A stretch of DNA of 13,940 nucleotides, taken from contig QZKU01000133.1 of assembly GCA_003598085.1 (NCBI GenBank), positions 1 through 13,940 on the forward strand, given 5' to 3'. This document shows, piece after piece, positions 1 through 8,915 of this stretch. The position numbers and the translations under genes are program-made. The notes beneath the pieces are model-generated. The model saw only the letters and a list, made by a program, of their open reading frames with translations. It made no database searches and had not been told where the DNA came from. The stretch's first letter is position 1. Every line of letters starts with the position of its first letter. Source of the stretch: Candidatus Abyssobacteria bacterium SURF_5. Its GTDB lineage: Bacteria > Abyssobacteria > SURF-5.

Positions 1-167
1 CTTTCAAGTATCCTCTTCAGACACTCGATATACAGGATTTAGTTCATGCTTTTCAATTATTTATGACTTTTTCTCACCCACAAATTCTCGCGAGGACCCC
101 ATTATTATTATTCGTTATCGAAAATAGCGTCTTAAATGCTAAAGGTGCGGGAACAGCCGTTGCCGAC

Positions 168-173
168 GGAGGG
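168..173 (+). promoter_or_regulatory. Ribosome binding site that sets the start of the first gene
   Basis: GGAGGG lies 7 bases before the ATG at 181. The in-frame ATG at 136 has no comparable site. Starting at 181 also puts a clean basic-plus-hydrophobic signal peptide at the N-terminus. No convincing -35/-10 pair was found in bases 1-167, so the promoter may lie outside the window. Confidence 0.75.
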
Positions 174-180
174 TAAAACA

Positions 181-2109
181 ATGTTTACACGCGGTCGGTT
201 TCTCAAACTCCCCGGGTTCTGTCTTGTGATGCTGTGTCTATCGATTGTTGTATTTGACTACGGTTCTCCGCGCGTCATTCATGCTGCAGGAGGGACAGGA
301 TATGCCGGCTCTGACGCCGGCCGATCTATTGTCAATGCGTTTAAGCATTTGATTTGGGTGATGGATAAGTTTCACAAGAAATTGGATGTTTATACCGACC
401 TCTCGGCGGGCGGCAACCATTTCGTAATGTTCGGGAAGATGTCCGATCCGCCGGGTGCAGAGGATAACGTGACGATAAATCCGGGATGGAGAGTCGGCGC
501 GCACAGCGGAGCGACATGCATCCGGAACACTCTGCTTGCCGAGGGGGATAACTGGGGCGGATTCTATTTCTTAAATGGCGTGCTCGAAGGACAAGAGACG
601 CAGCCTAAAGCAAACTGGGGAGAATATGCGGATGCGGGAGTTAACCTCACGGGCGCAACAATGATTACCTTTTGGGTAAAAGGCGATGAGGGCGGAGAGA
701 ACGTCGAATTCTTCGCCTTTGGCGTCGGAAGAGATCCAGTAACGGGCGCACCCTTCATGCCGAATCCCGACTCATCTCCGAAAGTCTCGGCCGGTTTGCT
801 GTCACTGACAACGGATTGGCAGGAAATAACTCTCGCAGTCTCGAGTGCAGATTTGAGTTACGTGCTGGGAGGCTTTGGATGGGTTGCCGCCTCGAATATG
901 AACGGCTACGAAGATATAACATTTTATCTGGACGACATTCAATATGATAAAGCTCGCCTAAACCAGCCGCGGTTCCTGTTGAGTTATGAAACGATTCCGT
1001 CGGAACTTGACTTTGACAAAGTCATGAAAAACTGTTCATTTGTCTATGACGATTCCCTTGCACTGATTGCGTTTCTCGCCACACGCAGGCCTCAGCTTGT
1101 TGCGCGCGCAGGCTTGATTGCGGAAGCCCTTGTGTACGCGGCGCAGAATGATCGCTCCTTCAGCGATGACAGGTTACGCAATGCATATCAGGCCGGCGAT
1201 TTAATTCTCCCTCCAGGCTGGATACCGAATGGGAGGGCGAACACCGTGAGGATGCCGGGCTGGTGGGATTTTGAGTCCGACAACTGGTTCGAGGACCCGA
1301 TACAGGTGGGGACCTATACCGGGAACATCGCATGGGCCATGCTTGCACTCTTGTCATATTATGAAGAACAGGGCGGACAACAATACCTGACGGCCAGCGA
1401 GCGGTTTGGGGAATGGGTCGAAAGAGAATGTAAGAACACTGCCACACCTCTTAAGGGATACATGGGCGGATACGAGGGCTGGGAGCCGGTCCAAACAAAG
1501 CTCACCTGGATATCTACCGAACACAATATCGACCTCTACGCCGCTTTCATGAGGCTCTTTAACCATACCGGAGATGTCAAATGGAGAGACAGGGCTCTCC
1601 ATGCCAAACATTTTGTGGAGTCGATGTGGAATGCTGAAGCAGGGCATTTTTGGACAGGCACGCTTGATGACTGCGCCACGATAAATACGAGTGTGATCCC
1701 CGTCGATGTGCAAGCGTGGGCGCTGATGGTGTTTGGCGATGTCAATGACTACTCGCGCGGCATTGAATGGGTCGAGGCGAACTGTTCCGTGAACGCTGAC
1801 GGCGTGAGAGGATTTTCCTTCAGCGATTATGATGCCAGTCATGTCTGGTTTGAAGGAACTGCGCAAGTGGCGGGCGCTTACAAACTGCTGGGGAATACAT
1901 CAAGTGCGGCAACGTATCTGCGCGAGATCGAGAAGGCTCAAAAATATGCGCCGAATGGCAACCGGCTCGGCATTGTAGCCTCTTCCGGCGATGGATTGGA
2001 GACGGGATTCGGTTGGGCCTATTATTCGAGACTTCATGTCGGCGCGACCGCCTGGTACATTCTGGCCAAGATGGGTATAAACCCATTCTGGGGGACTGCG
2101 CTCAAATAA
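181..2109 (+). CDS. Secreted protein with jelly-roll-like domain and alpha-barrel glycosidase-like domain
   Basis: A 642-residue exported protein of uncertain function. It begins with a signal peptide: MFTRGRF, a hydrophobic stretch, then an Ala-rich cleavage site near VIHAA at about residues 32-36. Residues about 68-256 are rich in Gly, Trp and beta-type segments and end with a YLDDIQYD-like strand. That resembles carbohydrate-binding jelly-roll modules such as those attached to glycoside hydrolases. From about residue 275 on, repeated helices with aromatic and acidic residues (YDDSLALIAFL at about 289-299, ending in TAWYILAKMGINPFW) suggest an (alpha/alpha) barrel of the six-hairpin glycosidase type. 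I cannot assign a glycoside hydrolase family or name catalytic acids. A carbohydrate-active or surface-polysaccharide role is inference. The gene stands alone, and nothing beside it clarifies a substrate. Confidence 0.8.
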   Translation: MFTRGRFLKLPGFCLVMLCLSIVVFDYGSPRVIHAAGGTGYAGSDAGRSIVNAFKHLIWVMDKFHKKLDVYTDLSAGGNHFVMFGKMSDPPGAEDNVTINPGWRVGAHSGATCIRNTLLAEGDNWGGFYFLNGVLEGQETQPKANWGEYADAGVNLTGATMITFWVKGDEGGENVEFFAFGVGRDPVTGAPFMPNPDSSPKVSAGLLSLTTDWQEITLAVSSADLSYVLGGFGWVAASNMNGYEDITFYLDDIQYDKARLNQPRFLLSYETIPSELDFDKVMKNCSFVYDDSLALIAFLATRRPQLVARAGLIAEALVYAAQNDRSFSDDRLRNAYQAGDLILPPGWIPNGRANTVRMPGWWDFESDNWFEDPIQVGTYTGNIAWAMLALLSYYEEQGGQQYLTASERFGEWVERECKNTATPLKGYMGGYEGWEPVQTKLTWISTEHNIDLYAAFMRLFNHTGDVKWRDRALHAKHFVESMWNAEAGHFWTGTLDDCATINTSVIPVDVQAWALMVFGDVNDYSRGIEWVEANCSVNADGVRGFSFSDYDASHVWFEGTAQVAGAYKLLGNTSSAATYLREIEKAQKYAPNGNRLGIVASSGDGLETGFGWAYYSRLHVGATAWYILAKMGINPFWGTALK

Positions 2110-2515: not shown

Positions 2516-4024
2516 CTATTTTCGTTTGCTGTTGCTCTCCTCTCCCACTAGTACCTGCGTCACTTCCGTGGCGATATCATTCGAGGGATTCGGATCGCCC
2601 GGGATCACGATCTCCGCTTCCCAGGTGCAAAGGGGTGCGTCCTCAACCGCGACCGCGATCCGGAACATGTGCATCCGTCTGTTGTCATGACCCTTCGAAG
2701 GAACAGGCACGCTCCCTACCAGCACTCCATTTTTGTAGAGATTGAGCGAGCCTCCCACCTTCTTGTTGCCCTTGCCTCTTAACCCGAACAGCACGGATAC
2801 GCGGACCATAGAGGCGTCATCATCATCCACTTCCACTTTGCGAGGAGCTTTGATTTTCTTGATCAGTCCATCAACCACGGCGGCCCTCTCGCAGTCGGAA
2901 TCGGCCTGATCAACCAGTCCGTCGCAGTCGTTGTCGATGCCGTCGTCGCACACTTCCGCGGCGCCGGGATTCACGGCTGCGTTATTATCATCGCAATCGA
3001 CATCGGCTGCATACCCATCCGCATCGAGGTCGTCATCGGGCGTGGCCGGATTGCAATCGTCGTCGATCCCATTATACGGAACTTCAGTCGCGCCGGGATT
3101 GACGGCGGGATTGGTGTCGTCGCAGTCGACGTCTGCCGCATAACCGTCGCCGTCCTGGTCGACCGGCGGCTGCTCGCAGTCGGAATCGGCCTGATCAACC
3201 AGTCCGTCGCAGTCGTTGTCGATGCCGTCGTCGCACACTTCAGCGGCGCCGGGATTCACGGCTGCGTTATTATCATCGCAATCGACATCGGCTGCATACC
3301 CGTCCGCATCGAGGTCGTCATCCGGTGTGGCGGGTTCGCAATCATCATCAATCCCATTGTACGGAATCTCTGTCACTCCCGGGTTGATGTCGGGATTGGT
3401 ATCGTCGCAATCTCCGCCGCCATTTAGAGGATCGGGATTGCACGCCGAGTCTTCATAGCCGTCGCCATCGGCATCCTGGCAAGCCGGCAGTTCATAGACT
3501 TCGAATTCATTCGTGTCGACAGTTTCCTCTACATGAGGAAAGACAGTAGAATTATCTTCGTCAAAGGGAGAGCCGAACCATGAGACGCTCCACGTGTAGA
3601 AACCGGGCGCTGAAGGCGCCGGCGCCGCAAGCAGGACGGGGAACTGCAGGTCGCTCGAACCTGACCCGTCGTCGCCCACTCCTGTGGGGCCGGTTACTCT
3701 ATCTATCTCAAAACCATCCTGATCGTAAAGGATCGCTCGAATCCACCCCTGCCGATACCCTCCGCTGAATGTGACAGTCACCGTCTGCCCCGGCTGGTAG
3801 CGGTCCAGATCGGTCGTCGCCGTCAGATTGATAACCGATTTGGTCGCGTCCTGCCACACACCGTGGGCATGACATCCATTGCAGGTAGGAGTATCATCGG
3901 TATGACATCCGGCACAATTGGTCGTAAAGTACTCGGACACCGCGAATGCTTTACCCGACGAGAAGCCCATCGCCAATACGGCCACGAAGAGCCATGTCGA
4001 TACGACCATCCATTTGAATCTCAT
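2516..4024 (-). CDS. Secreted dihaem protein with four MopE-type Asp/Cys repeats and two beta-sandwich domains
   Basis: A 502-residue exported protein with a Sec signal peptide (residues 1-28, cut after AFA). Two c-type haem motifs follow, CAGCH at 37-41 and CNGCH at 48-52. Residues about 64-178 look like an immunoglobulin-type beta-sandwich. Residues about 182-380 contain four repeats of the pattern DCDD(T/N)N...NPG..E...(N/D)GIDxDC, the putative metal-binding MopE motif (Cu-binding_MopE family), interleaved with DxDGDGY or DADGY calcium-loop-like segments. Residues about 384-495 form a second beta-sandwich resembling CARDB-type domains. An AAAGGAGA ribosome site (4031-4038) lies 6 bases before the ATG. 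An extracellular or cell-surface role in electron transfer or metal binding is inference. No partner cytochrome is adjacent and the substrate is unknown. Confidence 0.88.
   Translation of the reverse strand: MRFKWMVVSTWLFVAVLAMGFSSGKAFAVSEYFTTNCAGCHTDDTPTCNGCHAHGVWQDATKSVINLTATTDLDRYQPGQTVTVTFSGGYRQGWIRAILYDQDGFEIDRVTGPTGVGDDGSGSSDLQFPVLLAAPAPSAPGFYTWSVSWFGSPFDEDNSTVFPHVEETVDTNEFEVYELPACQDADGDGYEDSACNPDPLNGGGDCDDTNPDINPGVTEIPYNGIDDDCEPATPDDDLDADGYAADVDCDDNNAAVNPGAAEVCDDGIDNDCDGLVDQADSDCEQPPVDQDGDGYAADVDCDDTNPAVNPGATEVPYNGIDDDCNPATPDDDLDADGYAADVDCDDNNAAVNPGAAEVCDDGIDNDCDGLVDQADSDCERAAVVDGLIKKIKAPRKVEVDDDDASMVRVSVLFGLRGKGNKKVGGSLNLYKNGVLVGSVPVPSKGHDNRRMHMFRIAVAVEDAPLCTWEAEIVIPGDPNPSNDIATEVTQVLVGEESNSKRK
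2888..3322 (-). repeat. Tandem 285-bp duplication inside the MopE-repeat gene
   Basis: Bases 2888-3037 recur at 3173-3322 with only two differences in 150 positions, by direct comparison. The spacing is exactly 285 bases (95 codons), so the reading frame is kept. Past this block the two copies diverge clearly, while still encoding the same kind of repeat. The pattern indicates duplication or gene conversion of one pair of MopE units, more recent than the origin of the other units. Confidence 0.92.
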
Positions 4025-6681: not shown

Positions 6682-6765
6682 GCGCGTTTTTGGACCAAAA
6701 TGGGCCATCCGAATCTCGCCATAATAGGTCGGAAAAGTTTTTTCTAGATAATGTGGCTTTAGGAC

Positions 6766-6794
6766 TTGACAGCTACCATATGTCGTGGTATAAT
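6766..6794 (+). promoter_or_regulatory. Consensus sigma70-type promoter of the lysine-rich minigene
   Basis: A perfect TTGACA (6766-6771), a 17-base spacer and a perfect TATAAT (6789-6794). The predicted start is near 6801, just before the left arm of the inverted repeat at 6804. With both hexamers ideal, this is expected to be a strong constitutive promoter. Confidence 0.9.
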
Positions 6795-6803
6795 TCTGCA
6801 TGA

Positions 6804-6992
6804 CACTTGGGGCCAGTAGATCCATTGACCCATGATTCCCGTTAGCACGAAGTAAGAACTTGCCATGGGGAGGAAACTATATGGCCGAAAAGAAAAAGGC
6901 GACTAAAAAGGCCGCCAAGAAGAAACCCGCAAAGAAAGCTACGAAAAAGACCGCAAAGAAGAAGAAGTAGTATCATCCACTGGCCCCAAGTG
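6804..6992. repeat. 14-bp perfect inverted repeat enclosing the lysine-rich minigene
   Basis: CACTTGGGGCCAGT at 6804-6817 is exactly complementary to ACTGGCCCCAAGTG at 6979-6992. Pairing continues for three more bases after one mismatch (6819-6821 with 6977-6975). The left arm begins at about the predicted transcript start, and the right arm begins a few bases after the stop codon. The two ends of a roughly 190-base message could therefore pair into a closing stem. Flanking target-site duplications, expected for a mobile element, are not seen. Confidence 0.9.
6881..6970 (+). CDS. Very small lysine-rich basic peptide (histone-H1-tail-like)
   Basis: A 29-residue peptide that starts MAEKKKATKK and continues almost entirely as Lys, Ala and Thr with a single Pro, in KKAxKK-type repeats. 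Such sequence resembles the C-terminal tails of histone H1-like and AlgP-like bacterial DNA-binding proteins, where it binds nucleic acid non-specifically. Here the tail stands alone, without a folded domain. A GGGGAGGA ribosome site (6867-6873) lies 7 bases before the ATG, and a perfect promoter is upstream. The mixture of AAA/AAG and of Ala codons argues against a simple nucleotide repeat. Nucleoid, ribosome or RNA binding is inference. A dual coding and structured RNA is also possible, because the gene lies inside a long inverted repeat. Confidence 0.8.
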   Translation: MAEKKKATKKAAKKKPAKKATKKTAKKKK

Positions 6993-7058
6993 CCCACTTC
7001 AGAGTTCCTGCCACGGTCAAATCGAAATTGTCGCCACAAAACCCGCCGTCCCGTTTTC

Positions 7059-7087
7059 TTGAACAGCCCCACAGCCTGTGTTAAGAT
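7059..7087 (+). promoter_or_regulatory. Probable promoter of mutL-miaA
   Basis: TTGAAC (7059-7064), a 17-base spacer, then TAAGAT (7082-7087) preceded by TGT, an extended -10 feature. Start predicted near 7094, giving a leader of about 50 bases. The spacer contains a small palindrome, CACAGCCTGTG (7070-7080), that could be an operator. Hexamers match consensus at four of six positions each, so this is a moderate candidate. Confidence 0.45.
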
Positions 7088-7142
7088 ACCCGTGCAGCAA
7101 AAGAAAACGTTTGATTAAAAGAAATTTGGTCGTTCGCTATCC

Positions 7143-8915
7143 ATGCCGACAATAAATATTCTTTCCGAAGACACTGCAAATAAAATCGCCGCCGGCGAAA
7201 TCATCGAGCGGCCGTCGTCGGTGCTGAAAGAGCTCGTCGAGAACTCGATCGATGCGGGCGCAAAGAAAATCTCGATCGAGCTGATGGGCGGCGGCAAAAC
7301 GATGATCCGCGTGATCGACGACGGTTGCGGGATGTCTTCCGACGACGCGCTTCTCTGTCTCGAACGGCACGCCACGAGCAAGATCTCGAGCGCCGACGAT
7401 CTTTACGCCATTCGCACGTTCGGATTCCGCGGCGAGGCGATCCCGAGCATCGCGGCCGTATCCAAAATGGAAATCATCACGCGCGCTCACGACAGCATCT
7501 CGGGAACACGCATCGTCATCGAGGGCGGCGTCATCCACAGCGTCAGCGAAAAGGGCGCGCCGGCCGGAACGCAAATGACCGTCCGCCAACTTTTTTTCAA
7601 TACGCCCGCCCGGCAGAAGTTCATGAAGTCCGCCGCCACCGAATACAGTCATATCCTGAATATCCTGCAGCGCCAGGCGCTCGCTCAACCTCAGATAAAT
7701 TTTCGCCTGGTCAACGGCGAGCGCGAGATGCTGAATCTTCCGCCGGCTCGCACGATCGCCGACCGGCTCGCGCTCGTTTGGGGAAACGATTTCCTCGTGC
7801 ACATGAAATACGGAGAGGCGGCGCATAACGATCTCTCGATAACCGCTTACCTCGGCACGCCCGCGCTCACCCGCTCGAATCGCGATCACCAGTTCTTTTT
7901 CCTGAACCGCAGGCCGATCTCCAACAGGCTCTTGACCAAAGCGTTGTCGGATGCGTATCGCGGCTTCGTGATGAGCGACCGCTTTCCCGTCGCCTTTATC
8001 TTTATCGAGATCGACCCCGCTCTTGTCGATGTCAACATCCATCCGACGAAACGGGAGGTTCGCTTCTCCGATCCCAATCTGATTTCGGAGCAACTGCTCA
8101 AAACCTTTTCGTCGGCATTCGGGAGAGGCGGCGCACAACGAAGCGAGCAGTCGGCGACGATCTCTCTGCCGCGGCCCGACGATGCTGCGCCGCGCCGCGA
8201 GGAGCCGCTGTTTCAACGCATCAGGATCGATGACAATTTCACGGCGGCGCCGCCCGAAATAGAGAAAGATTTTCCTTCGGCCGCTGCGCCCGTCGTCCCG
8301 GTCACCCGGCCGACGGCCGATTTCTCGCCGGTCCCGACCGATGCCCGATTCGTCAAGCAGGTGTTCAACGCTTACCTGCTGTGCGTGCAGGGAGAGGACC
8401 TGCTGATCATCGACCAGCACGCCCTGCACGAACGGATGCTGTACCAGGAACTGGTCGAGCGTTCGGGGCGCATGCCGGCCCTGATTCAGCAGATGCTGAT
8501 TCCGCTTCCGATCGAGTTGCCCCCCGACCGCGCGGAGATTCTGACCGCGCATCTCGATCTGTTCGCGCAGATCGGCATCGCCATCGAGCCGTTCGGCCCA
8601 CGCTCTTTCGCGGTGACGGCGCTCTCATTCGCTCATAAGGAGCAGCGCGTTGTCGAGATCGTGCGCGACGGCGTCGACGAGCTGTACCTCGGCCTCAAGC
8701 TGAAAGCGCCGCGCGAGATACTGCGCCGTCTCATGACGATCTCCGCCTGCAAAAACTCGATCAAGTCGGGCGACCCGCTCAGCGACAGCGAAGCCGAGAT
8801 GTTGCTCGAAGGCCTCAAGCGCATCCCGCAGCCGGCAACCTGCCTGCACGGGCGCCCGCTCGTTCTCAGGCTGACCGAGTCGCAGATCGCGCGCGCGTTC
8901 GGGCGCAAGGGATAA
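7143..8915 (+). CDS. mutL: DNA mismatch repair protein MutL (endonuclease type)
   Basis: 590 residues, normal length for MutL. It couples mismatch recognition by MutS to strand cleavage and excision. The GHKL ATPase domain is clear: NKIAAGEI (13-20), LVENSIDAGA with the catalytic Glu (31-40), DDGCGM (59-64) and RTFGFRGEA (91-99). The transducer segment DVNIHPTKREVRF is at 296-308. A Pro/Ala-rich linker spans about 330-400. The C-terminal domain has DQHALHE (424-430), ACKNSIKSG (535-543), CLHGRP (567-572) and a terminal FGRKG, the metal site of endonuclease-type MutL proteins. Two motif positions deviate: Gln replaces the second Glu of DQHA(X)2E(X)4E, and Leu replaces Pro in CPHGRP. No clear ribosome site precedes the ATG. 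miaA follows after 4 bases. No mutS is in the window. Confidence 0.97.
   Translation: MPTINILSEDTANKIAAGEIIERPSSVLKELVENSIDAGAKKISIELMGGGKTMIRVIDDGCGMSSDDALLCLERHATSKISSADDLYAIRTFGFRGEAIPSIAAVSKMEIITRAHDSISGTRIVIEGGVIHSVSEKGAPAGTQMTVRQLFFNTPARQKFMKSAATEYSHILNILQRQALAQPQINFRLVNGEREMLNLPPARTIADRLALVWGNDFLVHMKYGEAAHNDLSITAYLGTPALTRSNRDHQFFFLNRRPISNRLLTKALSDAYRGFVMSDRFPVAFIFIEIDPALVDVNIHPTKREVRFSDPNLISEQLLKTFSSAFGRGGAQRSEQSATISLPRPDDAAPRREEPLFQRIRIDDNFTAAPPEIEKDFPSAAAPVVPVTRPTADFSPVPTDARFVKQVFNAYLLCVQGEDLLIIDQHALHERMLYQELVERSGRMPALIQQMLIPLPIELPPDRAEILTAHLDLFAQIGIAIEPFGPRSFAVTALSFAHKEQRVVEIVRDGVDELYLGLKLKAPREILRRLMTISACKNSIKSGDPLSDSEAEMLLEGLKRIPQPATCLHGRPLVLRLTESQIARAFGRKG

Follow-up and report, generated by a model that had tools for sequence, protein, structure and literature searches.

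The window analyzed here, by which we mean the whole stretch of 13,940 nucleotides, carries a lysine-rich minigene that has a divergent multihaem cytochrome gene on one side and mutL on the other. Elsewhere in the window, an open reading frame (ORF) of 657 amino acids at 136-2109 (plus strand) has no Pfam match and a signal-peptide-like hydrophobic stretch near its start, so that its product is possibly secreted. A gene on the minus strand (2516-4024) encodes a 502-residue protein that contains four putative metal-binding repeats of the MopE type (PF11617), and a tRNA-Gly(gcc) gene adjoins it at 2307-2381. The minigene was compared in three genomes of this phylum, each belonging to a different genus: that of the window (G000) and two others (G001 and G002). 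Its features are as follows.

6740-6765, plus strand: candidate UP element, A/T-rich, 5' of the -35 hexamer, TTTTTCTAGATAATGTGG; 17 of 26 columns invariant in three genera
6766-6794, plus strand: sigma-70 promoter with an extended -10, TTGACA-17-TATAAT; 12/12 in all three genera
6804-6821, plus strand: 5' arm of an inverted repeat, about 4 nt past the predicted transcript start
6818-6842, plus strand: invariant leader segment AGATCCATTGACCCATGATTCCCGT; 24 of 26 columns invariant in three genera
6863-6873, plus strand: Shine-Dalgarno (SD) region CCATGGGGAGG
6881-6970, plus strand: ORF for a 29-aa Lys/Ala/Thr peptide, MAEKKKATKKAAKKKPAKKATKKTAKKKK; 31 aa in G002 and 24 aa in G001
6973-6994, plus strand: 3' block TCATCCACTGGCCCCAAGTGCC, holding the 3' arm (6975-6992), just past the stop; 22 of 22 columns invariant

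A first-pass annotation of this DNA had described a perfect promoter, a strong ribosome site, and a 29-codon Lys/Ala/Thr frame. All three are present, and both other genera have them at the corresponding position, the promoter with the same score. In the promoter scan, TTGACA begins at 6766 and, after a 17-nt spacer, TATAAT ends at 6794, with TG preceding the -10; 24 of the 29 columns are invariant across the three genera, spacer counted in (83%). The A/T-rich stretch at 6740-6765 is also conserved, compared to 10% conservation in the flank directly upstream of 6740. The SD CCATGGGGAGG lies 7 nt before the ATG at 6881, and its region is 83% conserved, the sole change being G to A in G001. Strong transcription and expression of the minigene is a prediction made from the promoter and the SD only. 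The mRNA is predicted to be ~190 to 220 nt long and to encode a polycationic peptide of 24 to 31 residues.

Lysine accounts for 16 of the 29 residues of the window peptide, 93% of which are K, A, T, P, V, R, or S, and no hydrophobic membrane segment was found in it. The ORF is 51% conserved across the three genera; its start, stop, and composition are kept while its sequence drifts. In composition and in its AKK/KKA repeats the peptide resembles histone-H1-like Lys/Ala-rich proteins (AlgP tails and short Lys-rich ORFs); it has the Lys/Ala/Pro/Thr-rich repeats of that class and matches no curated family model. No Pfam or NCBIfam match was seen at E values up to 1, a test weakened by the low complexity of the peptide, and a profile search was insensitive with such a sequence, missing even the G002 copy. 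The suggestion of the first-pass annotation that this could be an undescribed family holds as far as the Pfam, NCBIfam, and Rfam libraries reach: the gene and its flanks gave no match, including none to Rfam in 6740-7150 at E values up to 5. We infer that the peptide is histone-H1-tail-like and probably binds nucleic acid non-specifically.

The ORF of G001 (L003 1561-1632, minus strand) stops early, at 24 codons, and a second in-frame stop lies 10 codons further on, coinciding with the stop position of the other two genera. The early stop suggests a recent truncation or insertion.

The inverted repeat consists of 14 perfect base pairs (6804-6817 and 6979-6992) and extends to 18 nt with a single mismatch (6804-6821 and 6975-6992; 94% complementary, 153 nt apart). 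It had been claimed that one arm lies at the predicted transcript start and the other directly past the stop, and that so long and close a repeat would arise by chance about once in a hundred windows of this size; both statements agree with what was found. In 300 first-order Markov simulations of the 13.9-kb window, perfect 14-mer repeats spaced by at most 200 nt occurred at a mean of 0.013 per window, with at least one in 1% of the simulations. The arm is itself quasi-palindromic (CACT...AGTG), and the centers of the two arms are 174, 177, and 193 bp apart in the three genomes.

Among 41 genomes searched, two further members of the family contained the whole element (79% and 76% identity across ~255 query bases). 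Promoter, leader, SD, ORF, and the two arms are all there at the corresponding place, and the minigene again lies between the cytochrome gene and mutL. The genera stand far apart, since their cytochromes are only 70 to 71% identical and their MutL proteins only 65 to 66% (65 to 71% for the neighboring proteins overall). Intergenic flanks are 10 to 23% conserved (10% upstream of the element, 14 to 23% in the DNA that follows it). The 42-nt leader (+1 to +42) is invariant in 41 of 44 columns (93%), the misses being indel columns, and is thus conserved more than the peptide (93% versus 51%); the 20-nt linker between leader and SD region is 15% conserved. Conservation runs nearly unbroken from the promoter spacer through +42. 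Across the three genera the 5' arm has no substitutions and one 1-nt deletion, in the window genome. The leader outside the arm has the core GATCCA(N)TTGACCCATGAT, and the segment at 6818-6842 includes an ACCCA able to pair with the 5' arm in a hairpin, H1, as well as two stretches complementary to the SD, CCCATG and CCCGT.

To judge from this alignment, the arms are under very strong selection, and conserved ends and leader amid diverged DNA point to an undescribed RNA-controlled small gene. The first-pass annotation had proposed that arm pair and frame be sought in relatives and the arms examined for compensatory changes. Pair and frame are both kept in the two other genera of the phylum; no compensatory change exists, as all 14 core arm pairs are invariant across the three. 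Since the arms are invariant and show no such change, selection may be acting on the DNA, and we infer the pairing rather than regard it as demonstrated.

Predicted RNA structures have two states. In all three genera, the fold of lowest energy closes the transcript end to end (z-scores of -3.7, -2.7, and -2.9). The alignment folds into an end helix of 18 pairs that contains a single bulged or mismatched base and no covarying pair, since nothing varies. The additional GAT/ATC pairs are retained across a bulge in G001 and G002 and across a mismatch in G000. When growth of the transcript was modeled stepwise, H1, formed by UGGG of the 5' arm and CCCA, had a predicted probability of 0.90 to 0.94 in nascent leaders of 35 to 45 nt in the three genera, about 0.93 in the window, and was gone once the 3' arm appeared, the end helix taking over with a probability of 0.93 to 1.0 at full length. 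In G000, H1 was also lost earlier, at ~100 nt transcribed. H1 survives indels at its stem-loop borders in the three genomes, and it is only modestly better than in shuffles (fractions of 0.21, 0.04, and 0.06). No U-tract terminator was found directly after the 3' arm.

The SD is mostly paired in two of the three full-length messages, though no more than with shuffled leaders. A lock on the SD by the conserved leader was considered and dropped: SD accessibility was not lower than in the shuffled-leader control, and the idea has no backing beyond composition. Some 25 to 30 nt past the 3' arm, a CCAGTGG can pair with that arm over 8 bp in G002 and 7 bp in G001; this alternative 3' hairpin lies at L002 1772-1784 and at about L003 1480-1490 (minus strand), and it is broken in the window, at ~7012-7020.

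The minigene is single-copy and chromosomal and, in the genomes searched, confined to one family-level lineage. A sequence model of the leader, run with strict filters on 386 broadly sampled genomes, matched the three phylum members only. When a trans partner of the arm or the leader was sought in the three genomes, near matches to the arm were not in excess, and the leader segment had only scattered two-mismatch matches besides its own locus. A search for relatives by way of the neighboring cytochrome returned, among the matches listed (at least 80 loci), none recognizably of this phylum and none with the leader.

Short stand-alone Lys-rich ORFs do occur elsewhere: a search of 192 genomes for an SD, an ATG, and Lys runs found them in G010 (34 aa), G032 (25 aa), and G007 (53 aa). 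None of these has complementary arms of more than 8 nt or the conserved leader, and they are probably not homologous to the minigene. The 34-aa ORF of G010 (L005 1488-1592; also L140) is followed by two successive hairpin-plus-T-run terminators, and the ORF of G032 (MATKKKAATKKKGGAKKAAAKKKKK; L147) has strongly structured flanks, with CCCACTTT...AAAGTGGG downstream and GGCCTCACGGGGTGAGGCC upstream; structured RNAs may be a common setting of Lys-rich minigenes. Loci that keep the peptide and lack the arms, which the first-pass annotation had named as evidence against its reading, are thus absent from the three genomes of the phylum and appear elsewhere among these similar, probably non-homologous ORFs. 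Because those ORFs lack arms, the arms are a trait of the gene of this lineage and not of Lys-rich minigenes generally. As far as the sequences go, such minigenes are a recurring kind, and ends that close are peculiar to this lineage.

The explanation we favor, with moderate confidence, is a single-copy gene for a mini histone-H1-like peptide whose mRNA is stabilized or gated by pairing of its 5' and 3' ends. The 5' arm would probably first form the short hairpin H1 in the nascent RNA; after transcription of the 3' arm, the ends of the mRNA would pair over 14 to 15 bp plus 3 bp across the bulge or mismatch. The leader would thus be a two-state RNA, open when nascent and closed when finished, and the closed ends would most likely protect the message from decay that depends on its 5' and 3' ends, setting the amount of peptide. 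This is supported by arms that are nearly identical in three genera while neighboring proteins and flanks have diverged, and by their placement as an inverted pair, one near the predicted start and one directly past the stop. Pairing of 5' and 3' ends also has precedents in the aapA/hok and icaR mRNAs, discussed below. The proposal of the first-pass annotation that the RNA is protected or regulated by end pairing therefore gains from the minimum-energy closure in three genera and the strong conservation of the arms, and it lacks the compensatory changes. In addition, the invariant block runs 25 nt beyond the 5' arm, further than pairing of the ends can account for by itself. A fuller version is one that we advance only tentatively: an undescribed class of small bacterial gene in which the conserved leader hairpin is exchanged for the end helix on completion of transcription, giving a pseudo-circular, stable message for a polycationic nucleic-acid-binding peptide, which may in turn bind and regulate the helix.

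The main rival to RNA end pairing is a pair of DNA sites. Each arm would be an operator for a dedicated repressor, one at the transcription start and one past the ORF, with repression by a block or a DNA loop, and the complementarity in RNA would be a by-product of how the sites are oriented. Such sites would agree with the quasi-palindromic arm, with arms that are invariant instead of covarying, and with the near-continuous conservation from the promoter spacer to +42. The spacings of the arm centers, however, are out of helical phase, no further 14-mer sites occur in the three genomes above a reversed-pattern control, and the GAT/ATC complementarity is one base out of register, which is easier to reconcile with a bulge in RNA than with a site on DNA. 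We consider this explanation unlikely.

Less likely still is a type I toxin-like mRNA, in which a growth-inhibiting peptide would be encoded by a message that 5'-3' pairing and local anti-SD hairpins keep silent until it is trimmed, an antisense RNA being optional. Type I toxin-antitoxin systems are recognized by a small toxic, usually hydrophobic peptide and by an antisense RNA that overlaps the toxin gene or acts in trans, and the hok/aapA class also by long-distance 5'-3' pairing and an occluded SD in the full-length message. The minigene peptide is polycationic and without a hydrophobic membrane segment; a consensus scan, which could miss promoters, found no sigma-70 match antisense to the ORF in the window or in G002, and G001 gave only a 9/12 match close to the start; occlusion of the SD is no greater than with shuffled leaders; and the gene is single-copy, at an identical position in three genera. 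The layout nevertheless resembles that of the hok and aapA toxin mRNAs, which at full length are inert through long-distance 5'-3' pairing and metastable hairpins (PMC6733600): a small ORF, a short mRNA whose ends are predicted to pair, a 5' strand that can first form a local hairpin, and two leader stretches complementary to the SD. The differences are that the 3' arm of the minigene would pair with the extreme 5' end and not with the SD, that its peptide is Lys-rich whereas theirs are membrane-active, and that, by the same scan, no antisense RNA was detected.

The position of mutL downstream in all three genomes raises the idea of a leader peptide or attenuator, in which ribosome transit over the Lys codons would select the partner of the 3' arm, either the 5' arm or CCAGTGG, and so govern readthrough into mutL. 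CCAGTGG can indeed pair with the 3' arm in G002 and G001, but this third segment is disrupted in the genome of the window, no conserved terminator precedes mutL, the 150 to 257 nt from the 3' arm to mutL are not conserved (14 to 23%), and mutL is not a lysine gene, all of which makes the idea quite improbable. A miniature mobile element (MITE), for which the short length (~190 bp) and terminal inverted repeats would speak, was rejected as scarcely credible: each genome has a single copy, the synteny is the same in all three genera, the element has a promoter of its own conserved outside the repeats, and the leader patterns had no matches in viral contigs.

Returning to end pairing, the icaR mRNA of Staphylococcus aureus, in which the 3'UTR pairs with the SD and thereby controls the message (PMC3868564), is similar in that two untranslated ends of one mRNA pair. 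In icaR it is a UCCCC motif of a long 3'UTR that pairs with the SD, giving an RNase III substrate, whereas the predicted minigene helix is longer, connects one extreme end of a very short message to the other, and does not involve the SD. We have not grouped the minigene with hok, aapA, or icaR because no hydrophobic toxin and no antisense RNA were found and because the SD lies outside the end helix. Where those three pair the 3' end with the ribosome site, the minigene would close its ends without the SD.

To our knowledge, few bacterial mRNAs are governed by end pairing. If end closure and the 42-nt leader are what has been preserved across genera, the minigene would offer a clean natural test of whether end pairing alone stabilizes or times a message. 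It would also be a starting point for work on mini-H1 peptides, for which the searches above returned no curated family model.
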